IMG/VR virus record: IMGVR_UViG_3300025133_000027 | Span: 1-64,000 of that record | DNA length: 64,000 nt | Direction: 5' to 3' (one strand) | Source: a virus | Part shown: one piece after another, positions 225 to 52,084 of the stretch | How the letters are laid out: every line of letters begins with the position of its first letter | Numbering within the stretch: the stretch's first letter is position 1 | The notes under the pieces: model-generated | What the model saw: the letters and a program-made list of their open reading frames with translations, nothing else | What the model was told of the DNA's origin: nothing | Databases searched by the model: none | Made by a program: the position numbers and the translations under genes

Positions 225-1440
225 ATGAAACATATTGAATATAAAGTAAAAGTATATGCAGACGGTTCTAAAGAATGGTTTCTAAACGATGAATACCACC
301 GTGAAGACGGCCCTGCTATTGAACTTGCAAACGGTGCTAAGTTCTGGTATCTAAGCGGTAAACGCCACCGTGAAGACGGCCCTGCTGCTGAATATGCAAA
401 CGGTGATAAGTTCTGGCTTCTAAACGGTAAACGCCACCGTGAAGATGGTCCTGCTATTGAATATGCGAACGGTTCTAAGTTCTGGTTTCTAAACGACAAA
501 CGCCACCGTGAAGACGGTCCTGCTATTGAATATGCAGACGGTTCTAAGTCCTGGTTTCTAAACGGTAAACGCCACCGTGAAGACGGTCCTGCTATTGAAT
601 ATGCGAACGGTTCTAAGTTCTGGTTTCTAAACGACAAACGCCACCGTGAAGACGGTCCTGCTATTGAATATGCAGACGGTCATAAGGAATGGTTTAGAAA
701 CGGCAATCTGCACCGTGAAGCCGGCCCTGCTATTGAATATGCGAACGGTTCTAAGTTCTGGTTTCTAAACGATGAATACCACCGTGAAGACGGCCCTGCT
801 GCTGAATATGCAAACGGTGATAAGGCATGGTTTCTAAATGGTAAGCCCCACCGTGAAGACGGTCCTGCTATTGAAAGTGCAAACGGTTCTAAGTTCTGGT
901 ATCTAAACAATAAAAAACTCACCGAAGCAGAATTCAATAAGAAAATGAAAAAGCCTTGTGAAAACAAGGTTGTTGAGATCGACGGCATCAAATATAAACT
1001 AACCGTATTGGAAGATTAAATGAAACATATTGAATATAAAGTAAAAGTATATGCAAACGGTGGCAAGGAATGGTATCTAAACGGCAAACGCCACCGTGAA
1101 GACGGTCCTGCTATTGAATATGCAGACGGTTCTAAGAGGTGGTTTCTAAATGGTAAGCTCCACCGTGAAGACGGTCCTGCTATTGAAAGTGCAAACGGTT
1201 CTAAGTTCTGGTATCTAAACAGCAAGCGTCACCGTGAAGACGGCCCTGCTATTGAATGGGCAGACGGTTGTAAATTATGGTATCTAAAGGGTAAACTCCA
1301 CCGTGAAGCCGGCCCTGCTATTGAAGGTGCAGACGGTACTAAGTACTGGTATCTAAACGGTGAACTCCACCGTGAAGACGGACCTGCTGTTGAATGGGTA
1401 GACGGTTCTAAGGTATGGTATCTAAACGGTGAACTCCTCA
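3..1440 (+). repeat. 69-bp coding tandem repeats over three genes
   Basis: The DNA CACCGTGAAGACGG.CCTGCT recurs every 69 bases across all three genes, encoding HREDGPA plus 16 more residues. Unit length is constant and in frame, with most substitutions silent or conservative. At least 16 complete units are visible. Confidence 0.9.
225..1019 (+). CDS. HREDGPA repeat protein, 9 full repeats
   Basis: 264 residues. A short N-terminal cap (MKHIEYKVKVYADG) is followed by nine 23-residue repeats with the pattern HRE.GPAxExAxGxKxWxLN, then a basic tail (EFNKKMKKPCENKVVEIDG) and a hydrophobic end. No signal peptide, membrane segment or catalytic motif is visible. The repeat is the MORN-variant type, likely a solenoid of beta hairpins used for binding. 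The gene starts immediately after the previous paralog's stop with no room for its own ribosome site, suggesting translational coupling. The same repeat follows the WCTA domain in three larger proteins at 27.9-40.9 kb. Confidence 0.9.
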   Translation: MKHIEYKVKVYADGSKEWFLNDEYHREDGPAIELANGAKFWYLSGKRHREDGPAAEYANGDKFWLLNGKRHREDGPAIEYANGSKFWFLNDKRHREDGPAIEYADGSKSWFLNGKRHREDGPAIEYANGSKFWFLNDKRHREDGPAIEYADGHKEWFRNGNLHREAGPAIEYANGSKFWFLNDEYHREDGPAAEYANGDKAWFLNGKPHREDGPAIESANGSKFWYLNNKKLTEAEFNKKMKKPCENKVVEIDGIKYKLTVLED

Positions 1441-1538
1441 CCGAAAAAAAATTCAATAAGAAAATGAAAAAGCCTTGTGAAAACAAGGTTGTTGAAATCG
1501 ACGGCATCAAATATAAACTAGCCGTATTGGAAGACTAA
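1020..1538 (+). CDS. HREDGPA repeat protein, 5 full repeats
   Basis: 172 residues, paralog of the upstream gene: the same N-terminal cap, only five 23-residue repeats, and the same C-terminal tail. The cap and tail are nearly identical at DNA level between copies while the repeat number differs. That pattern fits unequal recombination between 69-bp repeat units. Last gene before a long RNA-rich noncoding stretch. Function unknown. Confidence 0.9.
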   Translation: MKHIEYKVKVYANGGKEWYLNGKRHREDGPAIEYADGSKRWFLNGKLHREDGPAIESANGSKFWYLNSKRHREDGPAIEWADGCKLWYLKGKLHREAGPAIEGADGTKYWYLNGELHREDGPAVEWVDGSKVWYLNGELLTEKKFNKKMKKPCENKVVEIDGIKYKLAVLED

Positions 1539-27218: not shown

Positions 27219-27340
27219 CTTGTATTTCCTTGTGTGCTTTGTTTCGCTCTTTAATTATATCAGGACATTACTTTTCCCACAATAGAATGAAACTCTTTGA
27301 GCTGCGTGTGGTATCTTGTTACCACCCTAAAGGAGAAAAC

Positions 27341-27934
27341 ATGAGAAACGCACACGAAGTATACGACGAGACAATTGAGTTGGAACGAGAACGAATCTAT
27401 GAAAAATGGTTAAAGACTGGCCTGTTGCAAGGATTGGAAGAGGATAGGGAGTTAGCAGACAAGATTGCTCGGCTTCTTGAGAATCAAGCAACTTATATGC
27501 TTGCCAATTCCATTAACCTTGGAACTGACCAAGAAGCTCAAGATTTTTGTAACATAGTTTTCCCAGTCATCCGAAGAGTATTTGGAAAGTCACGCTATGA
27601 CCATGAAACTGGTGAACTTTATGAGTTGAATATTGATTGGCATGTGATGTCACTTCCCGCTCATTATGATGAAGAAACTGACAGAGCTATCAGGACAGCA
27701 ACATATAAACTTGAAACAGAATTCCCAAATATTCAAGAAATGGCCAAGCATACTTATTATAATCTTGATGCCGAGATTGAAGCTACAAGCATGTTTTCAG
27801 AAGCAGTTGCAAAAGAACTTGAAAAACGTTGGAAAAACCAAAAAATTCACGTTTATGTTCCTTTCTGTTATGACAAGGATGGTTCCCTCTGCATGAGATG
27901 GTCTTCTCAGGAAAAAGACTGTCCTGAAGACTAA
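27341..27934 (+). CDS. Hypothetical protein
   Basis: 197 residues from ATG 27341, chosen for AAAGGAGAAAAC. Acidic and helical; NLGTDQEAQDFCNIVFPVIRRVFG (about 60-83) is the most distinctive part. A possible -10 (TAGAAT) lies at about 27282. No known domain. First plus-strand gene before the cargo cluster. Confidence 0.75.
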   Translation: MRNAHEVYDETIELERERIYEKWLKTGLLQGLEEDRELADKIARLLENQATYMLANSINLGTDQEAQDFCNIVFPVIRRVFGKSRYDHETGELYELNIDWHVMSLPAHYDEETDRAIRTATYKLETEFPNIQEMAKHTYYNLDAEIEATSMFSEAVAKELEKRWKNQKIHVYVPFCYDKDGSLCMRWSSQEKDCPED

Positions 27935-30849: not shown

Positions 30850-33141
30850 GTGATTAAAATCAAACTACAAACAAAAAATCTTACTCTAAGTGCAGAGGAA
30901 CAATCAGTAAGAAAAGTTCTGGCCGAATGGCAAGAAATAATGAATACTGCTGTCATCACGGAAGGTGTTCTTTATAAGCAGGGCATGAAAGATAACCAAC
31001 CTAATGGCCCAATTGCACAGTTGCAGATGAAATTAATTAAGCTAAAATTTATGAAAAAAGCCTCGCTGGGTGTTGATCAGAAATATCTTGGAACTTACGG
31101 GCTTTTAACCAAACGAGCTGTTAGAAATTTTCAAAAGAAAGCATTCCCGAATAAAAGAGACGAGTGGGACGGACAAGCTGGTAAAAGAACTCTTGATGCA
31201 CTAGGTGGTAAAGTACCGCCTGCAACAGGTTCTAGAACTAGAGCCCCTTCTACTAGACAGAGTTCAAGACTTGCAAAGCGAAAAGCAGGGACTAAAAAAT
31301 CTAAATATTTTAAAGGCAAAAAAAGACCTAATATATCATTTATCAAAAAAGCTCCATCTAGTTCAAAAATGACAACTCTTAAGCAGATTGCTATGGGGAA
31401 GCTTGGCGTAAGTGGGCAACTCAAAGCAGGTGGTAAAGGCCGTGAAGTAGAAGCTCTTAAAAGGTGGTTAGTCAGCGCTAAACTCTTTGAGGGTAACGAT
31501 CTAAGCGCGGTATATGGTTCGGGTAACGGAGCTATGACGTTGAACCTATATGATGAACATACGATAAATGCAGTTAAGAGGTATCAAGAACGGTTAAGTC
31601 TTGAAGTAACAGGAAAAATAAGCCAAGAAACTGCAATTGCGCTCATGCTTGGTATTCAACAGGTAAGACTTCCAAAAAAATCAAAAACACCACTTCGTTT
31701 TAGTGAAGAACCTAAACAAGCCAAACAAACCAAAAATATTATTTACACAAAAATATTTGGTGTACCAAACCCATCAAAGTTTGCAGTGGCAAGCATTCTA
31801 AAAAATAAAACTGATATGGTTGATCGAAGCTATCAACTAGCGTTAAGAAATGCTGTCACTAACAAAGACGAGCTTTATAGTTATATGTCTAAAGGATTCG
31901 CAACGGCTGTAAAAAATCAAGGCGGAAAAGGGGGAGCGGAATTTTATGGGTACTTTGCTGGTTTAGCCAGAAAAACGATTAAAGAAAAAGGATGGACTGT
32001 ATGGGATACTAAATTTAAAGAATTTGCATTGAACCCAATCATGTTGCGCGTTATGTCTGGCAACAATATTGACTCGGAAAAAGTGCGTTACCTCGTATCA
32101 AGTATTTTTGATATAGATACTTTAAATGCTCAAATGTTTGCTTCAAAAATGAAGAGTAATAAAACTGAATTCACAAAAAAGGAACAAAAAGTTATTAGAT
32201 ACCTTGGTGGGGAGAATAGCTATTTAGCATTCAACTTAAGAAAGACAGAACTATCTTGGGTGCTTGCATGTGGAAGAAAGAATTCTGGTTCTGGTAAGTG
32301 CAAAGCACTCAAAGAGAGAAACATAAATAACCTATCTGAAATGATTCACCCAAGCGACTTGGTTTTGAAGAAATGGAGAGCTACATCTGGCCACCTAGAT
32401 GTTTATAAAAACATAAAAGGAAAAATTAATAAAGATATAGAAAAATTGATAAATCAAAGGGAGCTTTATAAATTAAAAAACCAATCTAACTGGACTCAAA
32501 TCAATAGAATACTCCAAGTTTTCAAAGAGATTGGAAAAGGACAAAATAAAGATATACGACAGGCTAGAGACATGGGGCCTTTGCCTATTGGTGTCTATAG
32601 AGTCTCTGATTATCAAGAGAAAAGTCATAAGAGCTTCGAGGGGCATTTCAGCAGAAACATGTCAACAAAAGTTAGTGAACAGTGGAAAATAATTAAAAGT
32701 CAAAAAGAAAGAAACTTATTGATAAAACTAATGAAAAAATTTAACTTTGTGCCATCTAGGGCACGAGACTCCAAGTCAACTGTCGGAGCTGATGGTAAGA
32801 GATACAGAGGTAGACGACCCACTACTTGGAATGTAAGCTCTTTAACTTCAGCAGCTTATGCGTGGGGTCGTCAGAGGATGTGGTTGACCAAACTAAACGT
32901 TCCCGATCCGAAAGCTAGAAAAAGAAGCGGATTTTCAATTCACGGCGGCGCTGCTTTCGGCTCTTCTGGGTGTATCGACTTAGGCCCAGCTATGGGTAAT
33001 TTTTCTAGCTTTTATAAAAAAGCGGTAGGTAAGTCTGACATATTACTAATTTCAACCGCTGGAAACCTTCCTAACAGGGTTTCTAAGAAGTATTACTTAG
33101 GCAAAGAAGTTGGTAGCAACGTAGAAGGGGCATCTGTTTAG
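30850..33141 (+). CDS. Peptidoglycan-binding YkuD L,D-transpeptidase-like protein
   Basis: 763 residues. Two PG_binding_1-like repeats (about 54-118 and 198-268), a long central helical region, then a YkuD-type domain starting at GPLPIGVYRV (about 575) with catalytic-type motif HGGAAFGSSGCIDLG (about 697-711), including His and Cys. YkuD enzymes cross-link or cleave murein at D-amino acids. An LAE site at residues 24-26 after a helical start may be a prohead-protease cleavage site. Without a signal peptide it must reach murein through the virion or after lysis. Confidence 0.8.
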   Translation: MIKIKLQTKNLTLSAEEQSVRKVLAEWQEIMNTAVITEGVLYKQGMKDNQPNGPIAQLQMKLIKLKFMKKASLGVDQKYLGTYGLLTKRAVRNFQKKAFPNKRDEWDGQAGKRTLDALGGKVPPATGSRTRAPSTRQSSRLAKRKAGTKKSKYFKGKKRPNISFIKKAPSSSKMTTLKQIAMGKLGVSGQLKAGGKGREVEALKRWLVSAKLFEGNDLSAVYGSGNGAMTLNLYDEHTINAVKRYQERLSLEVTGKISQETAIALMLGIQQVRLPKKSKTPLRFSEEPKQAKQTKNIIYTKIFGVPNPSKFAVASILKNKTDMVDRSYQLALRNAVTNKDELYSYMSKGFATAVKNQGGKGGAEFYGYFAGLARKTIKEKGWTVWDTKFKEFALNPIMLRVMSGNNIDSEKVRYLVSSIFDIDTLNAQMFASKMKSNKTEFTKKEQKVIRYLGGENSYLAFNLRKTELSWVLACGRKNSGSGKCKALKERNINNLSEMIHPSDLVLKKWRATSGHLDVYKNIKGKINKDIEKLINQRELYKLKNQSNWTQINRILQVFKEIGKGQNKDIRQARDMGPLPIGVYRVSDYQEKSHKSFEGHFSRNMSTKVSEQWKIIKSQKERNLLIKLMKKFNFVPSRARDSKSTVGADGKRYRGRRPTTWNVSSLTSAAYAWGRQRMWLTKLNVPDPKARKRSGFSIHGGAAFGSSGCIDLGPAMGNFSSFYKKAVGKSDILLISTAGNLPNRVSKKYYLGKEVGSNVEGASV

Positions 33142-34009: not shown

Positions 34010-34759
34010 ATGAAGAAACTTAAACGAATTTTAAAACTAGCAGAAATCAATTATGTCAATGCCAGAAACCCACATAGACATATTCCAAATAGAAATATTA
34101 TCCGTGCCAATACTATGTTTATGCTGTCCATTCTAAAAGCTAATATCCAAATAAGAGACATATTCGGTTTACATATAGGAAGAGATGAGTGGCTTAAGTC
34201 AACATTTGATATTGTAAAACAAGTTTCATTATTATCAAAATCTAAAATAAAAAAATTCTTAGGGAATGGTGCTTTCGGTGCAGCTTTTGAACTTGACAAC
34301 GGCAGGGTTTTGAAAATCGGGCGTATCCTGGATCAGGAAACCTCAAGAAAAAGTTATACTGGTATCCTATATGGTAAGTATGATGAACCAGAATTTAAAG
34401 ATATTTCAGTCAAAAATACGCTCCCGGTATTTGATAGTGGCGTCATTAAGAGACCTAGCAATTGGATTAACCGTAATCTTCAATGGTCTGAAATACCTCT
34501 CCTGAAGATGCTAGATTGGGAACAAAAGGAAGCCTGGGACGAGTTATCTGATCTACTTCATTTTATTGATGACCCTCAAGAAATTGCGAGTGTAATCGAT
34601 ATCATGGACACCAATATATTAGATAAAATCGGTGATAAAGAATCTATCATCAAAGCATTAGAAGCAACCTGCACTCTTGAGGGCGATCTTGGTGATGTTC
34701 ATGCAGATAATGTAGGACAGTTTATTCAGTCGGGAGAATTTGTCGTATTCGACAACTAA
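34010..34759 (+). CDS. Minimal kinase-like protein with LxE leader
   Basis: 249 residues. Leader MKKLKRILKLAE, then a helical segment with RNPHR.IPNRNI. Kinase-like features in order: glycine loop GNGAFG (85-90), VLKIG with the ATP-binding Lys (100-104), APH/kinase-type catalytic loop GDVHADN (228-234) and a metal-binding FD (247-248), at which the protein ends. This resembles aminoglycoside phosphotransferase-like kinases cut short after the DFG equivalent. First of three tandem paralogs. Target unknown; injection into the host is inferred from the leader. Confidence 0.75.
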   Translation: MKKLKRILKLAEINYVNARNPHRHIPNRNIIRANTMFMLSILKANIQIRDIFGLHIGRDEWLKSTFDIVKQVSLLSKSKIKKFLGNGAFGAAFELDNGRVLKIGRILDQETSRKSYTGILYGKYDEPEFKDISVKNTLPVFDSGVIKRPSNWINRNLQWSEIPLLKMLDWEQKEAWDELSDLLHFIDDPQEIASVIDIMDTNILDKIGDKESIIKALEATCTLEGDLGDVHADNVGQFIQSGEFVVFDN

Positions 34760-34770
34760 ACTATTATACT

Positions 34771-35637
34771 ATGAATGATCTAAAAAGAATATTATTGTTA
34801 GCAGAAATTAACTATATTGATGACAGAAATCCTCAAAGACAGGTTCTAAACAGGAACAACATTCGCTCAAACACATTGTATCTCTATAAAAAGCTTTTAC
34901 ATAATTTTCATCTTAGAAAAGTTTTTAGAATCAATAGTCCAAGAAATGTAAATCTAGATGTTGACGAGTACAAGAAAGAAATTCTTAAAGTTATATTTAA
35001 TATTGTAATTCAAGTCCCTCTACTTTCTCAATATAGAATCGTAAGCGTCCTTGGATCTGGTGAACTTGGGTTGGTTCTTGAAATAAAGAATGGACGAGCA
35101 TTAAAGATTGGATACGAGACAGCCTGGGAAACTCCCAAAGAGAAAAGTGTTGCTATCACATATAATATGAATGGCGAAGATCCTGATATCCTTACTTTAA
35201 ATAAAAACCTGTTACCTATTTTTGGAAATGGAACAATCAAAGTAGATAAGAAGTCTACTCTATACTTCAAAGATCGCTATGCTTTTGGGAAGGAAGGCTC
35301 TAATATGTATTGGACAGAGATTCCTCTCTTGCAAATGCTTTCTATTGATGAAAAGCACATCTGGGATAGCGTTCATTATAATACAAAGACATATCTAATG
35401 AATCTTGGAAAGGAACATTTGTTTAAAAATCCTCAAGAATTAGAATCTGAAATTATTGAAGATCTTATTAAATGGTCTACAACTAGGACACTTAGCACAG
35501 ACGATCGACAGGTTCTCTCAAGAATGATGAAAGCTGTTCTTGCTCAGGTTAAAGTTGATGGCCATTTTAAAGATGCCCACGGTGACAACGTAGGTAAGTT
35601 TATTCAGTCCGGTGATTATGTAGTCTTTGACAATTAG
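34771..35637 (+). CDS. Minimal kinase-like protein with LxE leader
   Basis: 288 residues. Leader MNDLKRILLLAE; RNPQRQVLNRN follows. Glycine loop LGSGELG, ALKIG, catalytic loop KDAHGDN and terminal VVFDN. Has a longer insert between hinge and catalytic loop than the first paralog. 11 bases after it; likely one operon. Confidence 0.75.
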   Translation: MNDLKRILLLAEINYIDDRNPQRQVLNRNNIRSNTLYLYKKLLHNFHLRKVFRINSPRNVNLDVDEYKKEILKVIFNIVIQVPLLSQYRIVSVLGSGELGLVLEIKNGRALKIGYETAWETPKEKSVAITYNMNGEDPDILTLNKNLLPIFGNGTIKVDKKSTLYFKDRYAFGKEGSNMYWTEIPLLQMLSIDEKHIWDSVHYNTKTYLMNLGKEHLFKNPQELESEIIEDLIKWSTTRTLSTDDRQVLSRMMKAVLAQVKVDGHFKDAHGDNVGKFIQSGDYVVFDN

Positions 35638-35644
35638 GAGAAGT

Positions 35645-36508
35645 ATGGATAACTTAGAAAGAATATTGCGTTTAGCCGAGATCAACTATGTTTCTGGAAG
35701 AAACCCTCAGAGGTATGTTCCGAATAGGAATATCCTTAGGTATAACTTCAACAGAATTATTGAAATATCAAAAGACCATCAGGCAAATACTTTTGCAAAG
35801 AATCTAGGAATAGCTGCAATAGAAAAAAGGGATCCATATGGCTGGATGGGTCTTTCTTATGAAGCAACTCCCAAGAAGGTGTTCACATTACTAACAAAAA
35901 TTCCATTGCTATCACAATACAAGATCGAAAAGATGCTCGGAATGGGATATTTTGGAGTTGTTTTTAAACTATCTAATGGTAGAGCACTTAAAATTTCTAG
36001 AGAAATCACGCAAGATTATTCAGAGAATGGTAAGTATGTTGGGATAACTTATGGAGATGATAAAGTCCATCAGATGTCAGTCTCAACTTTTGCTGTTTTT
36101 GATCATGGAGAATTTGATGAGGAAGGACTAAAAGGATCATGGTCCGAAATTCCGCTTATAGAACCTCTTAAGAGAAATGATAAGGAGCTCTGGAGACAAA
36201 CTGGTTTTGGTTTCGGCTATCTAGCACGGAAACAAAAAATTGCATTTCATAACGCCATGGATAGTGATGACGAAGATAAGATGATGCATGAAATATTCAA
36301 CCTAGGAATTCCGAAGTATCAAACTGTTTGGGTTGGTGGTCCAGAATATAAAGACTATGCAGAAACATATGGTATAAGAAAAACTCGAAATATGATCAGA
36401 GCTTATATGACAAGATATAAAATTGATGGACACGTAAATGATGCTCATGATGGCAATGTTGGAACACTAATCCAAGATCCAGACGTTTACGTTATTTTTG
36501 ATAACTAG
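35645..36508 (+). CDS. Minimal kinase-like protein with LxE leader
   Basis: 287 residues from ATG 35645 (TTAGGAGAAGT upstream). Leader MDNLERILRLAE, then RNPQRYVPNRNIL. Glycine loop LGMGYFG, ALKIS, catalytic loop NDAHDGN and terminal VIFDN. All catalytic-type residues are retained across the family, arguing for activity. Confidence 0.75.
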   Translation: MDNLERILRLAEINYVSGRNPQRYVPNRNILRYNFNRIIEISKDHQANTFAKNLGIAAIEKRDPYGWMGLSYEATPKKVFTLLTKIPLLSQYKIEKMLGMGYFGVVFKLSNGRALKISREITQDYSENGKYVGITYGDDKVHQMSVSTFAVFDHGEFDEEGLKGSWSEIPLIEPLKRNDKELWRQTGFGFGYLARKQKIAFHNAMDSDDEDKMMHEIFNLGIPKYQTVWVGGPEYKDYAETYGIRKTRNMIRAYMTRYKIDGHVNDAHDGNVGTLIQDPDVYVIFDN

Positions 36509-36516
36509 GGATAATT

Positions 36517-38505
36517 ATGACAATCAAACTTATCATAGAAAGTAAAAAACTGCTTCTTGAAAAAACACTAGAACAAGTCGAAGAACGCTTTAAATCGAAG
36601 AGATTTCTTAGGCTCATGGATAAACTATATGGCGATGATCCAGATACTATGCAGTCATACCATATGAGCTCTATCACAGTAATCCGAAGACAAATTCCTA
36701 ATGACATACCAGAGAAGGATAAAGCTGAAGCTTTAGATTGGCTTATTAGCCAAGTTATCAAAGCTCAAAAAATACCAGATGTTTATAGTGGCTTCCTAAA
36801 TGTTAAACAAGATCTAGAGTTTTTCTATCTAATCAAAAACTCAGGGCAATCAAGATTCTTGAGCGTTAAGTCTCTTATGAAGGTTGCTCAATGGGATGAA
36901 CTTGAGGATATCGTTGACGATGCCCAGCCTAAGTACGAAGAGTGGGATAATGAAAAGCAAGAGAAGGAGCTTGCTAAAAACGGCGGTGGTGAAGGTGTTA
37001 ATCATATTGTAAAAGACAATCCTGATTGGGATGTTTATATCCCTGAAACTCAATTAGCTGCACGGTTTCTCGGAAGGGGCACAAATTGGTGTACAGCAAC
37101 CAATCCAAAGACTTCAAGAAACTATTATGATCAATATCATACAGAAGAAAGTCCTTTATATATCTTTATCAGCAAAGCTAATCCCACTGATAAATATCAG
37201 TTCTCATACGCTAAACATGATTTTGCTAATAAATCAAATAAACAAGCCAAAAGACCTAAATTTCTTGAATTAAATGAAATAATTAAAAATATTGGTGAAC
37301 CTATAATCACTTCGTTTAATCTTAATAAAGCGAATAAATATGTTTTTAAAAAATTAAAAAATGGTGGCTATTCGTATTTTGTGGGTAATGTAAAGAAGTG
37401 GTATTTAAAAGGAGACCTCCATCGTGAGGACGGACCTGCTTTTATTGATTCTGATGGTTCTCAGTTCTGGTATTTAAAGGGTAAACTTCATCGAGAAAAC
37501 GGTCCTGCTGTTGAATATCAAAATGGGGAAAAGGAATGGTATCTGAAAGGTAAGCGCCATAACAGAAATGGCCCTGCTATAGAATATGTGCATGGTGGAA
37601 AAAAGTGGTTCATAAATGGTATGCAGTATACCGAATCAGGTTTTAATTTAAAAGAATGCAAGGGAAGTAAAAATATGAAGAGGCAAGAACCAAAAGAACT
37701 TAACGAATCAAGTTCAATGATCGGAATGACTATCAGAGAAGGTTACGAACTTCTTAAATCTTTTGAAGGAAAAAATCTTATCTTCTTTGATACCGAAACT
37801 ACTGGCTTGCATCCGAAAAACTCACAGATTACAGAAGTTGCTGTATTTGTTGGTCATCTTCCAAGCTGGTCTGAGGGTATAAATGAGTCATCATTTATTA
37901 AATTTCATGAAAAAGCAAAGCTTACTCAGCAAAGTCTTGGTAAACTTAAAGAAAAAATGTATGGTGATAAGACTTATCGTGAACTACTTCGTATGACGAA
38001 TTATGGTCAACACGGAAAGAAGTATCTTCTTGAAGGAGTAATGCTAAAAGATCTAAAAGACTTCATTGAACAGTTTGAAGATCCAGTTTATGTAGCTCAG
38101 AACGCACAGTTTGATATGAAAATGATAAACACAAGATTAGCATCATATGGATTGGAACCTTTAAACAGGGCTCCTGTTCTTGATACTAAATCAATTTTGT
38201 CTTTCTTCTTGAAACCAATATTTATGACATCAAAAAAGAATACAAGAACCTATGATGTTAGCACAAGGGTTCCCGAGAAACGTGGTTCTATGTCAACAAG
38301 TCTCGGTGATATAGCAGCCGCTTTCGAAATCTCAAATGATAACTGGCACTCCGCTGACGCTGATGTTCTTATGATGATTAATGTGTTGCAACAAGCTGTA
38401 AAAATATTCGAACTTGAAGAGTATGATATAGAACAAGCTAATCAACTCGCAAGCGGAGAGCAGAAGAGTTATGTAGATAAGGGGAATAGGCACTATGTCA
38501 ATTAA
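36517..38505 (+). CDS. WCTA / HREDGPA protein fused to DnaQ-like exonuclease
   Basis: 662 residues. Leader MTIKLIIESKKLLLE; helical part; WCTA domain (VYIPETQLAARFLGRGTNWC about 169-188, SPLYIFISKA about 210-220); four HRE-type repeats (about 300-370); second linker; then a DEDDh exonuclease domain with FFDTETTGLHP (about 423-433), NAQFDMKMI (about 528-536) and HSADAD (about 611-616). DEDDh enzymes digest DNA or RNA 3' to 5'. A nuclease with a capsid-type leader would be delivered with the genome. Overlaps the next gene by 11 bases. Confidence 0.82.
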   Translation: MTIKLIIESKKLLLEKTLEQVEERFKSKRFLRLMDKLYGDDPDTMQSYHMSSITVIRRQIPNDIPEKDKAEALDWLISQVIKAQKIPDVYSGFLNVKQDLEFFYLIKNSGQSRFLSVKSLMKVAQWDELEDIVDDAQPKYEEWDNEKQEKELAKNGGGEGVNHIVKDNPDWDVYIPETQLAARFLGRGTNWCTATNPKTSRNYYDQYHTEESPLYIFISKANPTDKYQFSYAKHDFANKSNKQAKRPKFLELNEIIKNIGEPIITSFNLNKANKYVFKKLKNGGYSYFVGNVKKWYLKGDLHREDGPAFIDSDGSQFWYLKGKLHRENGPAVEYQNGEKEWYLKGKRHNRNGPAIEYVHGGKKWFINGMQYTESGFNLKECKGSKNMKRQEPKELNESSSMIGMTIREGYELLKSFEGKNLIFFDTETTGLHPKNSQITEVAVFVGHLPSWSEGINESSFIKFHEKAKLTQQSLGKLKEKMYGDKTYRELLRMTNYGQHGKKYLLEGVMLKDLKDFIEQFEDPVYVAQNAQFDMKMINTRLASYGLEPLNRAPVLDTKSILSFFLKPIFMTSKKNTRTYDVSTRVPEKRGSMSTSLGDIAAAFEISNDNWHSADADVLMMINVLQQAVKIFELEEYDIEQANQLASGEQKSYVDKGNRHYVN

Positions 38506-40915
38506 GATTATATTAAGAGAAAGTAAAAAACTTCTTCTTGAAGTAAAATTAGAAGACGTTAAGAAGAGATTTAGATCTAAGAAATTCCTTCGAGTTTTTA
38601 ATGAAGAATATATGAGAAATGACGAAGAGAATTACCCAGGGGATGAACCATACGCATCCCATGAGGACTTTATAACTGATATTTCCACTGTGATGTTGGA
38701 AGTAATCCCCCATGATATACATGAATCTGCGCAAGCAGAGGCTCTTCAATGGCTTATTTCTCAAGCTATATTAGTCAAAGAATATGATTTCAGAGGAACT
38801 TTTTTTAAGAAAGATATTGAAAACTTTTATAAGATAAAAAACGGAAGATCTCAGTTTCTAGAAGAAAAGAGTTTAAATAATATTGTTGCATTTGCTCACT
38901 TAAGAGACATAATTGAAGAGGCTCTTCCTAAATATCTTAACTGGATCCGAGAAAAAGCTGATCTGTCAACAAAGGGGAATGGTGTCAACCTGATTCATCG
39001 AGGTGCTGTTTGGGAAGTATTCATTCCAGAAACTCGGGGAGCTGCTATCCGACTTGGTGCCGGCACTAACTGGTGTACTGCTGCTAGGCCAGGAGCACGA
39101 AACGAAAATCTGTATGATCATTATCATAGTGAAGAAGCTCCACTATATATCTTTATCAACAGAAAAGATCCTGCTGAGAAATATCAATTTGCTTATACCC
39201 ACGATGAGTTCATGGACAGGACCAATGAAGATTGCAGAAATACTTCTAAATTCTGTGATATGAATGAAATCATCAAAGGCCTTGGTCCAAGGATGATTAC
39301 CTCACTTAACCTCGCAGAAGCAAAAAAACAAAAATATAAAAAAATTGGGAAAGGTTACTATCTTATTGAAAAAGAAAAAGGTAATATTGCTTATGTCAAC
39401 AAACATGGCTATCATAACGAAGACGGTCCTGCCGTGGTTTCCAATTATGGTGCAGAAAAAGAATGGCATCAAAACGGGAAACTTCATCGTAAAGACGGGC
39501 CGGCTTTCATACGAAGAAAGCCGAAACTTGAAATGTGGTTCCAAAATGATATGAGACACCGAGAAGATGGTCCTGCTTTAATCAGCAGTTCAGGCCAGGA
39601 AGAGTGGTATCTGAAAGACAAGAGACACCGAAAAGATGGTCCCGCTTATTCTACAGATACAAAAGAAATATGGTTTCTGCATGGAGAAAGGCATAGAGTC
39701 GGAGGCCCCGCTCTTACTGTACACAAAGAGCTTGTCAGCATGAGTAGAATCCTCCACGCTTTCTATCAAAACGGGAAACTCCATAATGATGATGGGCCTG
39801 CCGAAGTTTATTACACTGGTGAAAAGAGGTGGTATAAAAACGGAAACCTCCATAATGAAAACGGCCCTGCAAGAATTGCTTCAAACGGGGTTTCGACTTA
39901 TTATCTTGATGGCGAACGAGTGCCAGCCCCAAACGAAGATCCAGCTAGGTTTAAAATCTTAAAAAAATATCTTGGGTTTGGGAAACCACCCGAGCGTGAT
40001 GACCCAAAAAGGAGACTTAGGTGGCTCGATGAAGCTCAACTTCCAGCAAAAGAACCAATTGACCAAGATGACCACCCATTATTCCCAGAAGAGGCAAACC
40101 GCAATATTTTAAGACATAACGTTAAATTTATCTTTCACGAACTTAAAAACTCAAAACATGCAGTGAGGACTGGTTTGCCATTGATAAACGATATGTTTTT
40201 CTTTGGCATGGCAGATGGCCTTTACGACCAATTGCGGGATATCCACTATGAAATTGCGGATATCGAAACTTCAGATCCATATTTTCATGAAAAAAGGGAG
40301 TCTTTAAGAAAAGAATATTCTAAAAAATGTTTTAAGACTGTTTTTAACACTGTTGTTCAAACCCCTCCCCTTAATAGCTCTAAGATTGTAAAACATCTTG
40401 GATCTGGTGCAAATGGAGTAGCTTATGAGTTAGCTTCTGGTCGTGTCTTAAAGATTGGCAGAAGTGAATATGGAAAAGACTCTGGCCTCGCTCGTATGAC
40501 TTTTGGTGATGAAGAAGACGAGTATTTTAAGAACGTTTCAATTAGCAAAAACTTTATGCCGGTGTTTGCCGCAGGTAAATATAAAGAACCTGTTGGTGGA
40601 AATATCTCTTGGAGAGAAATACCTTTCTTCAATATGCTTACAAACACAGACAAGAAACATTGGAGTATTCTTAAAAAACTAATGGATATTCTTATTAATA
40701 GACAATTTGATGTTCTCAACTACAAACCAATTCAAATCATAAACTTAGCAAAACATTTTAAAATCCCAATCAACAGCTCTCTTGAGACAAGTGAAGGAAT
40801 GATCCGAGCAATGCTTAAAGCTCTGGAGGTTTATGGAGACCTCCATGACGCCCACATAGATAATGTTGGGACCCTAGTTCAAGATCCTTCTACTTATGTG
40901 ATCTTTGATAACTAG
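38495..40915 (+). CDS. WCTA / HREDGPA protein fused to kinase-like domain
   Basis: 806 residues. Leader MSIKIILRESKKLLLE; WCTA domain (VFIPETRGAAIRLGAGTNWC about 172-191, APLYIFINRK); about seven H[RN]x[DE]GPA repeats (about 305-470); then a module like the standalone kinases: RNILRHNVKFI, LGSGANG (about 633-639), VLKIG, DAHIDN and terminal VIFDN. The fusion ties the WCTA/repeat module functionally to the kinase-like family next door. Likely virion cargo by inference. Confidence 0.82.
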   Translation: MSIKIILRESKKLLLEVKLEDVKKRFRSKKFLRVFNEEYMRNDEENYPGDEPYASHEDFITDISTVMLEVIPHDIHESAQAEALQWLISQAILVKEYDFRGTFFKKDIENFYKIKNGRSQFLEEKSLNNIVAFAHLRDIIEEALPKYLNWIREKADLSTKGNGVNLIHRGAVWEVFIPETRGAAIRLGAGTNWCTAARPGARNENLYDHYHSEEAPLYIFINRKDPAEKYQFAYTHDEFMDRTNEDCRNTSKFCDMNEIIKGLGPRMITSLNLAEAKKQKYKKIGKGYYLIEKEKGNIAYVNKHGYHNEDGPAVVSNYGAEKEWHQNGKLHRKDGPAFIRRKPKLEMWFQNDMRHREDGPALISSSGQEEWYLKDKRHRKDGPAYSTDTKEIWFLHGERHRVGGPALTVHKELVSMSRILHAFYQNGKLHNDDGPAEVYYTGEKRWYKNGNLHNENGPARIASNGVSTYYLDGERVPAPNEDPARFKILKKYLGFGKPPERDDPKRRLRWLDEAQLPAKEPIDQDDHPLFPEEANRNILRHNVKFIFHELKNSKHAVRTGLPLINDMFFFGMADGLYDQLRDIHYEIADIETSDPYFHEKRESLRKEYSKKCFKTVFNTVVQTPPLNSSKIVKHLGSGANGVAYELASGRVLKIGRSEYGKDSGLARMTFGDEEDEYFKNVSISKNFMPVFAAGKYKEPVGGNISWREIPFFNMLTNTDKKHWSILKKLMDILINRQFDVLNYKPIQIINLAKHFKIPINSSLETSEGMIRAMLKALEVYGDLHDAHIDNVGTLVQDPSTYVIFDN

Positions 40916-40957: not shown

Positions 40958-41248
40958 TTAAAAAAGGGGATACCTTTCTATCTTATTTAGATAGAGATTA
41001 TCTAAAAGTTTTAATATACTTGAATTTTTAAATATAACATTCTGGCTCTCAAATCCGGCAGTAATATAATGACAATAGCACATGCCCATATCAATCACAA
41101 AAATTACTCTCTGACGTTCATTAATAGTGAATACAAGCCCATTGATTCTTTGACTATAATCTAAATAGGTCCTTTTATTATGACTCTCACTCGGGCAAAC
41201 AAGTAAATCATTTCGATAAAGATAACTAAGCACTGATTCTTTTTTCAT
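40958..41248 (-). CDS. YPVF-tail small protein (RYPLF)
   Basis: 96 residues, strand-rich centre (GLVFTINERQRVIFVIDMGMC), ending LNKIERYPLF with nothing after the motif. Start overlaps the upstream family member by 4 bases. Confidence 0.7.
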   Translation of the reverse strand: MKKESVLSYLYRNDLLVCPSESHNKRTYLDYSQRINGLVFTINERQRVIFVIDMGMCYCHYITAGFESQNVIFKNSSILKLLDNLYLNKIERYPLF

Positions 41249-44225: not shown

Positions 44226-45251
44226 ATGAATTTTAAAATATTAATAGAGTCTGCTGCAACGGTTCCCCTAAAGGGACGACCAGCTCGCGACAATCAAAGA
44301 AGAAGCTTGGCTAACTCACCCGAACCCGAACGTCAAGAAGCCTTGTCTGATGTACAGGCTTTTAATTTTTACTTCTTATCAAACAATTTTGATAGCTTAA
44401 GTGTTTTATTAAATTATGATACAAGGGCTGGCAACGGTAAGACTAGACTAATTCGAGCGCTAGTAACAAAGATCCCACCATTATCCTCAAATAAGATTAT
44501 TAAAAAACTAGGAGCAGGGTCGTTTGGAACGACTTTCTTGTTAGCGAACGATCATGTTCTTAAGTTATTTATGGGGGGCCTTGATGACCATTCGAACTGG
44601 GATGTCGAAGGTGTTCGTGACTTAAATCGATATGAAGAATTAGCGAAGAGTCAGTTTGACAAGAAAGCTTTAAAATCAGATCTGATGATTTATGATTCAG
44701 GTTCTATAAAATTTAAAGGGTCGAGCTCTGGTCCAATAAGATTAATTAACTATGCAGAAATGCAAAAATTAGTGACACTTGTAGAATTTTACAAACTTTG
44801 TATAAAAGATAAAATTACATCTTCAAGACAGAAGATATTTAAAGTAATGCCAAGAAGTTATAATCCTTATGCACCAGAACTGAATAGCGATATTGCTACA
44901 TTGAAAGACTTAGCAAGAATACTTTATTACAAGAAAAAAACAAGAAATACTGAGGAATTTAATGAGGAAATAAGAAGACATAGCCAGTGGGGATTCTATG
45001 CTGACCAAGCACTTTATTCCATAGTTAGAAAAAAGGGCACACTAGAGGTCGTTAGAACACATTACTTAGAACGCAATTTAACTGAAATTCTTGGTAGTAT
45101 GAAGATTCTTTCTGTTGAGTTTGGAAAGATTCTTCTAGTTCAAATGGTAAAGGTTTCCAAAACTAACCTCATGAACCTCAGAGATGTTCGTCCATTAAAC
45201 ATTGGTATCCTTCCTCAAGATAGCTTCACCCCCGTATTATATGATTACTAG
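44226..45251 (+). CDS. Divergent kinase-like protein with LxE leader
   Basis: 341 residues. Leader MNFKILIESAATV. Glycine loop KLGAGSFGTTF (about 97-107), VLKLF with Lys, a long helical insert, then RDVRPLNIG (about 319-327) and terminal VLYDY. Same layout as the kinases at 34-36 kb, including termination at the DFG-like Asp, but His of the loop is replaced by Arg. Cargo role inferred. Confidence 0.7.
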   Translation: MNFKILIESAATVPLKGRPARDNQRRSLANSPEPERQEALSDVQAFNFYFLSNNFDSLSVLLNYDTRAGNGKTRLIRALVTKIPPLSSNKIIKKLGAGSFGTTFLLANDHVLKLFMGGLDDHSNWDVEGVRDLNRYEELAKSQFDKKALKSDLMIYDSGSIKFKGSSSGPIRLINYAEMQKLVTLVEFYKLCIKDKITSSRQKIFKVMPRSYNPYAPELNSDIATLKDLARILYYKKKTRNTEEFNEEIRRHSQWGFYADQALYSIVRKKGTLEVVRTHYLERNLTEILGSMKILSVEFGKILLVQMVKVSKTNLMNLRDVRPLNIGILPQDSFTPVLYDY

Positions 45252-46473: not shown

Positions 46474-47457
46474 ATGAAAAACACAGAAACTATCGATCAA
46501 TTTTTAAAACCATTTAGGCTACTATCAGAAGCCTTTGGTTCTGGCATAATTCAGACAATGAGAGTTTTTGACTTTGATGACACACTTGCTGAAACCGAAG
46601 CCAACGTTATTATTATGCGCCCTCCAAACTATGAAGAAGAAGAGATGAGCCCTGCTGATTTTGCAGTATATGAGCCACGTTCTGAACCTCATCCCGAAAA
46701 AGAGCGTATGGGCATTAATTCACTTGGTGAAGAATTTGATTTCCGAGAATTTGATCAAATTCTAAATCCAGTCAAAATTAAACACGTCACAGCCATCTTT
46801 AAAAGGCTGATTGCTGCTGGTGAGGAAGGTCGGTATGTCTCAATTCTTACAGCAAGAGGACCAGCCGTACAAGAGCATATCCGAGGGTATCTGATGGCTA
46901 TCTGTGAGGATGTTGGGCTCGATCCCTCTCCAATTGAGAAAATGGATATTGTCTGTCTTGGAAGCTCAGATCCGATGAAGAAGGCTGTTTGGATTGTGAA
47001 ACAAGCCAGGAATCATCCCGAGGTTAAACTTATAGAATTCTTTGATGACTCTCCTAAGAACCGTGACAAAGCTATGGAAGTAATTCCAAAAGCTCTTCCC
47101 GGTGTTGAAGTAAAAGTGTTTGACCCTGTTGATCTTGAAGGAAAGGTCCCTTCTTTTGTTCACAATGACATATATAGCGAAGCTAAGGAGCGACTTGATA
47201 AGGAAAAAATGAAGTGTAACACACCTAAAAGAACCCCAAGTCATCCAACTAAATCACATGTTGTAAAAGCTTGCGAAAATGGTAAGGAAAAAATAATTCG
47301 ATTTGGAGAGCAAGGTGCTTCTACCGCTGGCAAACCTAAAAAAGGTGAATCTGCTAAAATGAAGGCAAAGCGTGCGAGCTTTAAGTCTAGACATGGTAAG
47401 AATATAGCAAAAGGTAAAATGAGCGCTGCTTACTGGGCAGATAAGGTCAAGTGGTAA
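46474..47457 (+). CDS. HAD-like phosphatase with phage C-terminal domain
   Basis: 327 residues. Leader MKNTETIDQFLKPFRLLSE, an LxE-type end, then HAD motif I VFDFDDTLAET (about 31-41), motif II-like LTAR (about 123-126) and motif IV FFDDSPKNRD (about 186-195). The C-terminal 70 residues (ENGKEKIIRFG.., KRASFKSRHGKNIAKGKMSA) are a basic domain I know from other T4-like phage proteins. Substrate unknown. Confidence 0.8.
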   Translation: MKNTETIDQFLKPFRLLSEAFGSGIIQTMRVFDFDDTLAETEANVIIMRPPNYEEEEMSPADFAVYEPRSEPHPEKERMGINSLGEEFDFREFDQILNPVKIKHVTAIFKRLIAAGEEGRYVSILTARGPAVQEHIRGYLMAICEDVGLDPSPIEKMDIVCLGSSDPMKKAVWIVKQARNHPEVKLIEFFDDSPKNRDKAMEVIPKALPGVEVKVFDPVDLEGKVPSFVHNDIYSEAKERLDKEKMKCNTPKRTPSHPTKSHVVKACENGKEKIIRFGEQGASTAGKPKKGESAKMKAKRASFKSRHGKNIAKGKMSAAYWADKVKW

Positions 47458-47458
47458 T

Positions 47459-47911
47459 ATGTTAATGTTTATAAATGTTATTATCAGCATCGTTGCACTA
47501 CCAATCCTTCTAATCTTTGGGAAACCAAAAAAGGTAAGATTCGCAAAGCATTACTTATCTCCAAGATTAAATAAGAGATTTAGAATCTGCAAGTGGACTC
47601 CAGTATTAGAACTGGAATCAAGAGACTGGTTCGCAAGAATCCAAGGAAACTCTCACATTGCAGCAAACGCTGTCTTATGCTTTATGATTTACCGTAAAGA
47701 GTTCAAAGATAATTCAAAGACACTTATGCACGAGACAATTCACATTATTCAACAGTCATACTTCACACCAATCTTAGTTGGTCTAGTTTATGCGATTGAT
47801 GTGTTTATCTTCCTTCCTTTCCAACAGTGGTATCCTGAAAATTATATCATGAAAATCTCAGTTATTGAGAGACTAGCTTACGATCTAGCTGAGGAAAAAG
47901 ACAATGGATAA
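47459..47911 (+). CDS. Membrane-anchored HExxH protein
   Basis: 150 residues. N-terminal hydrophobic helix (about 2-19), a second near 100-120, and LMHETIHIIQQ (about 90-100), a zincin motif. Small membrane metalloprotease-like protein; start 1 base after the preceding stop. Target unknown. Confidence 0.75.
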   Translation: MLMFINVIISIVALPILLIFGKPKKVRFAKHYLSPRLNKRFRICKWTPVLELESRDWFARIQGNSHIAANAVLCFMIYRKEFKDNSKTLMHETIHIIQQSYFTPILVGLVYAIDVFIFLPFQQWYPENYIMKISVIERLAYDLAEEKDNG

Positions 47912-49529
47912 GAAAGATTTCACAAGATTTATTGACAAACCAGAAGCTGCAAAGGTTGATGGTGTTCGCTTAACAGAGAACTTTTTTAAGATCCTTAGAG
48001 AAGGAAAAAGCAATCGTATGATGATTGCTGGCGATAGTCAAGTATATCATACAGGCGGAAGTTTAAAGAGAAAACTAGATGCAAAGGGTTATAACGCTTT
48101 TTTGAATTTTAAAAGTGGAGAATCTACTGGAATGACTATCGTTCGACTTTCAAAGGGAAAGAGTATTAGCCTATCGTTAGTGGTTATTTTAACTGGTGGC
48201 AATAATCCAAGTGCAGCTTATACAGCTAAGAGATTACCAAGGTTAGTTAAAGTAATAAATGATAAATTTGATAACCCAGAGATTATCTTTGGTTTAACAC
48301 CTCCTCTTACTGGAAGGATGGTTCCATATCATGAAGATATGCAGAACAAGAGACAGGAGATTGCTTCAACGATAGCAAACTTTTGTAAAGAAAATAGTAT
48401 TAACTTCTTTGACCCACGTTCATTTATGAAGGATCCCGCATCTATTACTGGCGGTGACGGCCTCCATGTTCAAGGTGCCAATGCAGATAGGTTCGCAAGT
48501 GGAATTCTCAGCGCTGCATCTTTTGGTGATGCTACGAGAGGAGAAAGTGTTGAAGATGATACTTCGAAAAGTACAGAAGACCGAGGACTTGAGCGGTTAA
48601 GGTTAAATGATAGACAACTTATGGGTCTTAATTTTGGTGATAAATTGAGATACGCAAAAGCTAGAGCTAGGAAGTGTGATGCCGCAGGTTATCTTGGTTT
48701 TGGTTCTAATGGGCCAGAGATTCTAAGATTAAAAAAATCGCTCTCAAAATTAGGCTATAATCTCGACACCAGTAACGATTCTTTCGACACTGATTTCCTT
48801 GCGAACGTAGTTGCCTTCCAGAAACACAATGGTTTAAGGCAGGACGGCTGTGTTGGACCAAGCACGGCTGATTGGATCTTGGAGAAAGCTAAAAAAGCTT
48901 CTGAAAAGAAAGATCCAAATGCTTCACCAGATTCAAAACCAAAACATAGTAGCTTACGTAAGAATGAAATTACTGATATGATTTATAGAAAATATGCTAA
49001 AGCTGGCCTAAACAAAAATATTGCAGCGGCTGCAATCATAAACAGTCTCGCAGAATCAGGTTTAAAATATTATTTAGTTGGTGATGGTGGCAATAGTGTT
49101 GGGTTATTTCAACTCCACAGGGGGAGTAAGAGTAGACCCTTTTGGAAAAGTGCAGGTTTAGATCCAGACATTGCATACGATACCCGTAAACAGTTTAGAG
49201 AATTATGTAAAAGTCAAAATCTACCACCGGGAGGGTATAAATGCTCGGTTAGGGCTTCGGGAATGAAAGAGTTCGCCCGCAAAAGAGAACGTGCTGGTGA
49301 TTGGAGATTCAACCCGGAAAGAAACACAGAAGCAATTATTAATATTGAAGTCAAAAGAGGGGCTGGTAGAAAACTGAGATCTGCTGACAGAGCTGGTGCA
49401 TCAATTCCTGAGCTTGCTGCTATATTTTGTAGGGATATTGAACGACCTGCAAATAAGAGTAAGGGAATGCGGAAGCGACGAAAAATAGCAACAAAAAAAT
49501 TTGGAAACAGAAGATTACCTGACAGTTAA
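47904..49529 (+). CDS. SGNH hydrolase - PG-binding - lysozyme-like fusion
   Basis: 541 residues. SGNH-type domain with GDSQV (about 43-47), ILTGGNN (about 95-101) and DGLHVQG (about 186-192). Then a peptidoglycan-binding repeat (about 269-330), and a phage tail-lysozyme-like domain with AAAIINSLAESGLKYY (about 375-390) and SVGLFQLH, the Glu being the likely catalytic residue. Together this suits esterase plus glycosidase attack on murein. Overlaps the previous gene by 8 bases. Confidence 0.8.
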   Translation: MDKKDFTRFIDKPEAAKVDGVRLTENFFKILREGKSNRMMIAGDSQVYHTGGSLKRKLDAKGYNAFLNFKSGESTGMTIVRLSKGKSISLSLVVILTGGNNPSAAYTAKRLPRLVKVINDKFDNPEIIFGLTPPLTGRMVPYHEDMQNKRQEIASTIANFCKENSINFFDPRSFMKDPASITGGDGLHVQGANADRFASGILSAASFGDATRGESVEDDTSKSTEDRGLERLRLNDRQLMGLNFGDKLRYAKARARKCDAAGYLGFGSNGPEILRLKKSLSKLGYNLDTSNDSFDTDFLANVVAFQKHNGLRQDGCVGPSTADWILEKAKKASEKKDPNASPDSKPKHSSLRKNEITDMIYRKYAKAGLNKNIAAAAIINSLAESGLKYYLVGDGGNSVGLFQLHRGSKSRPFWKSAGLDPDIAYDTRKQFRELCKSQNLPPGGYKCSVRASGMKEFARKRERAGDWRFNPERNTEAIINIEVKRGAGRKLRSADRAGASIPELAAIFCRDIERPANKSKGMRKRRKIATKKFGNRRLPDS

Positions 49530-49561
49530 TTAAAAAGTTTTAATATAAGGATTTAAATAAA

Positions 49562-50212
49562 ATGAATGCAAATGAATATAACAGAAAAAGGCTTAGAAGC
49601 GGAGATATTCCAGATAGTGTAATAACTAAGATGGTAGAGCTTTGGCAAGAAGAGCACGGTCTTGATGTCGATGGTAAGCTTGGCCCGATAACTTTAAAAT
49701 CAATTGGAGCCGAGACAACTTTCGAACCTGATTGGACTACTGATTCTAAGAGAAAGTGGGCAGAAGAACTTTACGGAGCATTCCGCTTTAAGAGCCAACC
49801 TAACGGTAGAATCGTAATTTCATCAACATGGGTCAGAGAAAACATTGTAAGAGTAGAATTACATAACGGAAAGAAGGTTCGCATCAATAAGAAGATTGCA
49901 GAACACTTCAAGACTACTTTTAAAGAAGCATGTGAGAAATCTGGCTATACACCAAATTCTGTTCAAACATTTGTCCCGAGACACACCCTCTGGAATACTA
50001 GCAAATCAGTAAGTGCTCATAGTTGGGGTTGTGCTGTGGACTTTGATCCTCCAAAAAACCCAATGGGCGGAAAAATCAAGAAAACAGGCAGGCCTTCTCT
50101 TCTCAGAACACATCCAGAATTTGTCAAGGTTTTCAAGGATGCTGGCTGGACTTGGGGCGGTGATTGGCGCATGAAAGACGATATGCATTTCGAACTCAGG
50201 AAGGAGCTTTAA
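49562..50212 (+). CDS. M15-type murein peptidase with PG-binding motif
   Basis: 216 residues. PG_binding-like start (ITKMVELWQEEHGLDVDGKLGPITL, about 21-45), then an M15C peptidase domain with SAHSWGCAVDFDPP (about 155-168) and DMHFELR (about 206-212), providing the zinc ligands His, Asp, His. Such enzymes cut L-Ala-D-Glu in murein and act as endolysins or virion lysins. No signal peptide. Confidence 0.85.
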   Translation: MNANEYNRKRLRSGDIPDSVITKMVELWQEEHGLDVDGKLGPITLKSIGAETTFEPDWTTDSKRKWAEELYGAFRFKSQPNGRIVISSTWVRENIVRVELHNGKKVRINKKIAEHFKTTFKEACEKSGYTPNSVQTFVPRHTLWNTSKSVSAHSWGCAVDFDPPKNPMGGKIKKTGRPSLLRTHPEFVKVFKDAGWTWGGDWRMKDDMHFELRKEL

Positions 50213-50217
50213 GATCC

Positions 50218-52074: not shown

Positions 52075-52084
52075 GGGACTATTA

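Follow-up and report, generated by a model that had tools for sequence, protein, structure and literature searches.

We analysed a 64,000-nucleotide stretch of viral DNA (the window), bases 1-64000 of the 176,254-base virus record IMGVR_UViG_3300025133_000027, in which three genes, starting at positions 27942, 36517 and 38495, join the same N-terminal part to different C-terminal ends. The shared part is named here after the WCTA motif of its core domain. We consider that these three genes and their kinase-like neighbours probably encode cargo of a T4-type myovirus that is packaged in the head, trimmed by the head protease and injected, and whose ends are interchangeable.

Three WCTA genes and their C-terminal ends

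The first-pass annotation had reported the same N-terminal half alone, fused to a DEDDh exonuclease and fused to a kinase-like domain, and this description was accurate: the coordinates are exact, the open reading frames (ORFs) are intact and the N-terminal parts are mutually 45-54% identical. The WCTA motif, listed for 36517 in Table 1, lies at residue 211 in 27942 and residue 193 in 38495, and is followed by HRE repeats. The leader of 27942 (MAIKLIIESKQLLTE) carries two L/I-x-E sites, as do those of the other two genes.

Table 1. Positions in the window of the WCTA genes, their parts and related genes (aa, amino acids; AF2, AlphaFold2; HMM, hidden Markov model)
Feature	Position	Strand	Remarks
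Leader, helical region, WCTA domain, 3 HRE units and DEDDh 3'-5' exonuclease, 662 aa	36517..38505	+	intact ORF
Leader MTIKLIIESKKLLLE, L/I-x-E sites ending at residues 8 and 15	36517..36561	+	
WCTA core, aa 155-262, WCTA at aa 191	36979..37302	+	compact alpha/beta (AF2 model)
Three HRE (HxxxGPA) repeat units of gene 36517	37393..37621	+	
Predicted DEDDh exonuclease	37777..38391	+	catalytic motifs intact
Leader, helical region, WCTA domain, 7 HRE units and kinase-like domain, 806 aa	38495..40915	+	intact ORF
Leader MSIKIILRESKKLLLE, L/I-x-E sites ending at residues 9 and 16	38495..38542	+	
Seven HRE repeat units of gene 38495	39386..39914	+	
Kinase-like domain	40007..40912	+	Gly loop aa 636, LK aa 652-653, DxHxDN aa 785, FDN end
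Leader, helical region, WCTA domain and 4 HRE units, without catalytic end, 457 aa	27942..29315	+	intact ORF
Stand-alone kinase-like protein, leader LKRILKLAE	34010..34759	+	
Stand-alone kinase-like protein, leader LKRILLLAE	34771..35637	+	
Stand-alone kinase-like protein, leader LERILRLAE	35645..36508	+	ATG start at 35645
Divergent kinase-like protein, WCTA-type leader MNFKILIES	44226..45251	+	HMM 4.3e-10
Two pure HRE-repeat proteins, 264 and 172 aa, without WCTA domain	225..1538	+	

By its profile matches (PF00929, 2.9e-10; phrog_192, 8.7e-20; PADLOC DEDDh, 1.6e-14) and its D-x-E / D / H...D motifs, the C-terminal end of 36517 is a predicted DEDDh exonuclease, with all the expected motifs present (DTE, QFDMK and HSADAD). 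The phage also encodes a separate phrog_192 exonuclease, at record position 164392, with which this end shares 29% identity (5e-18); the end was therefore probably recruited from, or has a common origin with, a replication gene. The C-terminal end of 38495 is a predicted protein-kinase-like domain with a Gly loop, Lys, catalytic Asp, Asn and metal Asp, and the Gly-loop, Lys, Asp, Asn and Asp residues are invariant across seven homologues. It gave no match in a Pfam search and no relative in a sequence search of the PDB; its AF2 model, of medium confidence (predicted local distance difference test, pLDDT, 67.7), had PknB and APH kinases as top matches (best E 7e-3, probability 0.97). Three paralogues of this kinase-like end stand directly upstream of the fusions and a fourth lies at 44226, all overlooked in the first-pass annotation. 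An IMG/VR scan with the kinase profile recovered no relatives, and kinase relatives came from WCTA loci instead.

For the WCTA region itself, the AF2 model (pLDDT 88.9) consists of helices up to residue 154, with the leader lying within a helix at residues 2-14, followed by a small sheet around the WCTA loop. The domain is represented by only two unnamed catalogue entries, PHROGs 28193 (matching 60 of 75 WCTA proteins) and 17056 (57 of 75), in which function is unassigned and leader and architecture are not recorded, and there is no model for it in Pfam or NCBIfam. Neither a sequence relative nor a fold match was found in the PDB. Foldseek comparison with viral models recovered the domain's own family first and then PcfJ-like models (E 4e-4 to 9e-4, query template modelling score about 0.3). 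Weak matches to the PcfJ model PF14284 occur among WCTA proteins of other loci (best at locus L166, 22.3 bits, the Pfam cut-off being 25; L145, E 1e-3), and none among the proteins of the window; in a profile-profile alignment (hhalign, probability 7%), the WCTA Cys falls in register with the Cys of the PcfJ HCV motif. Because this sequence similarity is weak, we call the domain PcfJ-like in fold at most: the models suggest a distant relative of PcfJ, and we do not file it as PcfJ, from which it differs in having Trp-Cys for His-Cys and, usually, a capsid-type leader and repeats. We infer that the WCTA domain serves as an adaptor, but it might instead be an enzyme that works through its invariant Trp-Cys and conserved Asp/Asn. 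A literature search on WCTA/DUF6745 and phage PcfJ found nothing relevant.

Distribution of the WCTA domain and diversity of its partners

IMG/VR scans by single protein and by paralogue profile returned nothing, because the patterns chosen for them failed to capture the WCTA motif. From the same database, a DNA pattern for G-x-GT-x-WCTA recovered at least 120 stretches, and at its first 80 loci 84 of the 85 in-frame matches were clearly homologous. Because WCTA is built into this pattern, conservation was assessed again using only the loci recovered by a second pattern without it (KYQFHFE..QFMD; 46 stretches), in which the W and C are 100% conserved, as is the final D. In total we collected 188 WCTA genes, nearly all viral. 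One motif-based scan of 84,980 bacterial and archaeal genomes yielded only 14 WCTA loci, and the domain is therefore mainly viral. Several of the 14 are probably phage contigs in bins; those of Archangium, Devosia and others look chromosomal. The apparently chromosomal proteins of Archangium and Devosia (L196, L200 and L205) lack the leader and form a rare cellular branch, that of Archangium with degenerate repeats. In BFVD, records labelled Marseillevirus LCMAC201/202 contain WCTA-like proteins, one of them named ankyrin repeat protein, which may be mis-binned phage contigs or transfers to giant viruses.

The C-terminal parts of at least 80 amino acids that follow the core in the 188 ORFs form 55 sequence clusters. 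Among pairs with similar N-terminal parts (at least 38% identical over at least 150 amino acids), 584 of 1002 have C-terminal parts with no BLAST similarity at an E cut-off of 0.01, and in the best such pair the N-terminal parts are 82% identical over 238 amino acids. Rapid divergence could account for some of these dissimilar ends, not for all. Repeat ends comprise LRV, HEAT, DUF4116, pentapeptide, ankyrin, LRR, DUF6745/HRE and WG types; an independent fusion of WCTA to a kinase (L090; 2.3e-14) also carries a WYL-like segment, and an ADP-ribosyltransferase-like end (L067) and a further kinase-like end (L094) are tentative, being identified by eye only. WCTA units occur in tandem, with an internal leader, at L073 and L094. 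The fusions are not due to chance, because their independent relatives number well over a hundred, and the combination of a constant N-terminal part with a variable end is real and widespread. The first-pass annotation had allowed that the domain might have a single partner elsewhere, or that the fusions might be artefacts of annotation or assembly; tabulation in other phages revealed many C-terminal partners, and an artefact was dropped as an explanation, the ORFs being intact and independent fusions occurring elsewhere.

Several longer arrangements were also found. A 3740-amino-acid ORF at L166 contains repeated WCTA units, and five tandem ORFs in about 10 kilobases at L105 match the WCTA profile. 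An ORF of at least 2005 amino acids at L192 (contig JAHEYD010000003.1, binned as Nitrosotalea) consists of repeated modules, each beginning with a leader-like SFxxLVExxxxKY segment, with a WCTA unit near its end, and is a possible cargo polyprotein.

The same anatomy had led the first-pass annotation to propose a resemblance to polymorphic toxins or effectors. The constant N-terminal part with a variable catalytic end is indeed general, as the 584 pairs show, and a strict polymorphic toxin system, in which a trafficking domain, repeats, a swappable tip and cognate immunity would act against competitors or superinfecting phages, would also fit the nuclease and kinase tips. No immunity gene, however, lies between or directly after the fusions, whose ORFs overlap by 11 bases and are followed by an ORF on the opposite strand (40958-41248, minus); no secretion-type trafficking domain was found, most tips are repeats and many are non-enzymatic, and PADLOC matched only the exonuclease tip, mainly with a generic DEDDh model. 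We consider such a system most improbable, and it was dropped for want of an immunity gene.

The repeats also occur outside the fusions. As the first-pass annotation had noted, pure HRE-repeat proteins stand at the start of the window, where we resolved ORFs at 225-1019 (nine units) and 1020-1538 (five units) and a truncated one at 3-224; their unit measures 69 base pairs or 23 amino acids, with 82% matches. The two complete proteins share the tail KMKKPCENKVVEIDGIKYKL.VLED, and repeats resembling HRE were seen in Celeribacter phage P12053L and Agrobacterium phage Atu_ph07.

Leaders, head genes and the T4 comparison

In T4, the first 10 residues are enough for packaging, and proteins fused to this capsid-targeting sequence (CTS) are packaged and delivered (PMC9026906, PMC9958956); the protease gp21 recognises L/I-x-E as its cut site (PMC9026906). 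In the T4 record X04567, residues -10 to -1 are annotated as a leader that is cleaved off, corresponding to a cut after residue 10. We identified [LI]xE within residues 4-25 in 51 of 60 non-redundant viral WCTA proteins and in 134 of 419 other ORFs of the same contigs (85% versus 32%; Fisher 3.5e-15, this and the following p-values being indicative), and shuffled N-termini gave an average of 28% and a maximum of 42%. In 27 of the 60, versus 42 of the 419 (4e-10), the Glu of the motif is precisely residue 9 or 10, residue 9 being the most frequent end and residue 10 the next. Cellular WCTA proteins, with bacterial starts read by eye, have it in two of 11 cases (2.7e-5 versus viral).

The most telling observation is that unrelated genes of one contig share its leader. 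Non-WCTA genes repeat the WCTA leader of their own phage in 21 of 374 pairs at p<0.01, where 3.7 would be expected, and they include kinase, ParB-like, GNAT, nucleotidyltransferase, VanY and KptA-like proteins. Examples are MKLLLEKWEAYL, MKLILEKWNKYI (kinase) and MKLLLERWNKFL (ParB-like) at L023, and MKHFIQYLTED, MKSFTEYLTEN and MKRFTQYLTEN at L027. Some leaders are nearly identical to the T4 leader MKTYQEFIAE (MKTYQFITE at L049, MKTFVEYLTE at L022). Sorting information appears to sit in the leader, which resembles a T4-type capsid-targeting propeptide. Two long proteins, L059:9857-13258 (MKKIFENWNKFVNE) and a 508-amino-acid ORF of L049 (DEDLSRRGFLRG), contain internal copies of their own phage's leader type, which suggests several cleavage sites per chain.

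The leader might instead be a docking helix or an N-terminal quirk, for example for localisation to a membrane or phage compartment, of ordinary cytoplasmic phage proteins whose domains recombine. Its shortness and variability, the AF2 helix that contains it and the leaderless bacterial WCTA proteins would all agree with this, as would the mass spectrometry data on phage PA5oct described below. The excess of L/I-x-E at the T4 cleavage position over both controls, the phage-specific leaders common to unrelated genes, some of them near the T4 leader, and the gp21-type protease of this phage argue against it, and we regard a purely cytoplasmic role as rather unlikely.

That protease (phrog_207, 1.6e-48) is encoded beyond the window in the same record, together with a terminase, a portal protein, a T4-type major head protein (phrog_138) and a phrog_213 protein. 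Near residue 61, the presumed end of a T4-type propeptide, the major head protein has the sequence ELLRE-A. Of 32 other WCTA records, 15 also have a detected phrog_207 protease, the two complete phage genomes among them. L/I-x-E motifs are found in the head-core genes 114654, 115464 and 116668 of this phage and in several further genes, such as 46474 and 54237.

These core proteins raise the alternative that WCTA proteins are processed in the prohead core and remain there as scaffold or core, their repeats and enzymes serving assembly or virion DNA handling. The similar motifs of the true core proteins fit such a role, and so do two neighbouring genes: a truncated paralogue of the major head protein at 27335-27931 (plus strand; 40% over 70 amino acids, 6e-12), directly upstream of 27942, and a terminase-like ORF (by eye) directly before the WCTA gene of PA5oct. 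Intact exonuclease and kinase ends would nevertheless be odd in a scaffold, as would leader-sharing neighbours with ParB, GNAT, nucleotidyltransferase, VanY and KptA-like domains. Phage core proteins are as a rule conserved, and the C-terminal ends of WCTA proteins are not, even among those with similar N-terminal parts. We consider this role unlikely. The truncated paralogue itself retains the N-arm and part of the middle, and may be a decoy, a minor vertex protein or a remnant.

Elsewhere in the window, the regions 30850-33141 and 47904-54235 encode several large proteins with peptidoglycan-binding domains and lysozyme-, M15- or GDSL-like parts, one or more with an L,D-transpeptidase-like part (by eye) and some with L/I-x-E leaders (52085). 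The gene at 46474-47457 encodes a protein that by eye resembles a phosphatase; it has an L-S-E leader, and its C-terminal tail, which matches phrog_7595 (2.1e-37), recurs on one WCTA protein.

Injected cargo as the favoured interpretation

We favour head-packaged cargo as the role of the WCTA proteins and their kinase neighbours. The leader with its L/I-x-E site would recruit the protein to the prohead core, like the 10-residue CTS of the T4 internal proteins IPII and IPIII; the gp21-like prohead protease, whose gene is present, would cut after L/I-x-E and release the protein in the maturing head; and the protein would leave the head together with the DNA. In the host, the WCTA domain, with its distant PcfJ-like fold, and the HRE or other repeats may together serve as a shared module for binding or as an adaptor. 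The exchangeable end, whether exonuclease, kinase, another enzyme or repeats alone, would target molecules of the host at an early stage of infection, either to take over the cell or to counter its defences.

Several points weigh against this interpretation. Packaging, cleavage and ejection are extrapolated from T4, and the present phage is known from its genes alone. The strict T4 CTS pattern, defined by the IPIII determinants (aromatic 4, aromatic 7, L/I 8 and E 10), is rare, in three of 60 viral WCTA proteins and nine of 419 other ORFs (p=0.18); MKHFIQYLTED matches these positions exactly, and the window's own leaders do not. Start codons were set by rule, and the leader tests are overlapping variants of one motif. 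Some WCTA contigs, mostly fragments, have no detected phrog_207 protease, and because a few bacterial chromosomes carry WCTA without a leader, the domain is not itself a virion domain. The only experimental link to the virion is the PA5oct homologue EST35_0205, annotated as structural by electrospray tandem mass spectrometry in a phage that also has the phrog_207 protease. Likely contaminants also appear in the PA5oct list, such as ribonucleotide reductase, thymidylate synthase and other enzymes that a virion would not be expected to contain, and its detected proteins show no overall enrichment of [LI]xE leaders (20 of 88 versus 62 of 253, p=0.77). This noisy list without leader enrichment is the main weakness of the injected-cargo interpretation.

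As the leader resembles the T4 capsid-targeting propeptide, the closer analogy is with the T4 internal proteins and Alt. Like IPI, IPII and IPIII, the WCTA proteins have a leader with L/I-x-E near residue 9-10 that is common to unrelated proteins of one phage with a gp21-type protease; unlike them, they are large (200 to over 2000 amino acids), multidomain and enzymatic, and WCTA is not known from the T4 proteins. Alt, a packaged and ejected ADP-ribosyltransferase, is likewise a large enzymatic protein, and for WCTA proteins we propose a similar course of packaging, cleavage at L/I-x-E and injection, followed by modification of host targets. They differ from Alt in their kinase-like or exonuclease ends and common WCTA/repeat N-terminal part, the ADP-ribosyltransferase-like ends of L067 and L049 being tentative. 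Two accounts of giant phages such as SPN3US (PMC5694885, PMC10052503) also describe packaged, protease-trimmed head proteins, the ejection (E) proteins, that enter the host; these are not known to be related to WCTA proteins.

A broader proposal, which we put forward tentatively, is that a single capsid-addressing code is common to many large uncultured phages: a phage-specific leader would be placed on dozens of unrelated proteins, and the virion would deliver a cocktail of effectors. The tagged set might then comprise WCTA-repeat proteins, kinases, nucleases, ADP-ribosyltransferases, nucleotidyltransferases and cell-wall enzymes, with some polyproteins cut at internal leaders by the prohead protease and WCTA among the commonest modules. 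If true, the injected protein repertoire of large phages would be predictable from a short N-terminal code, and what phages inject besides DNA would become a directly testable question. The widespread unnamed domain of PHROGs 28193 and 17056 would gain a function-bearing context, and its proteins would provide natural examples of enzyme cargo inside phage heads.

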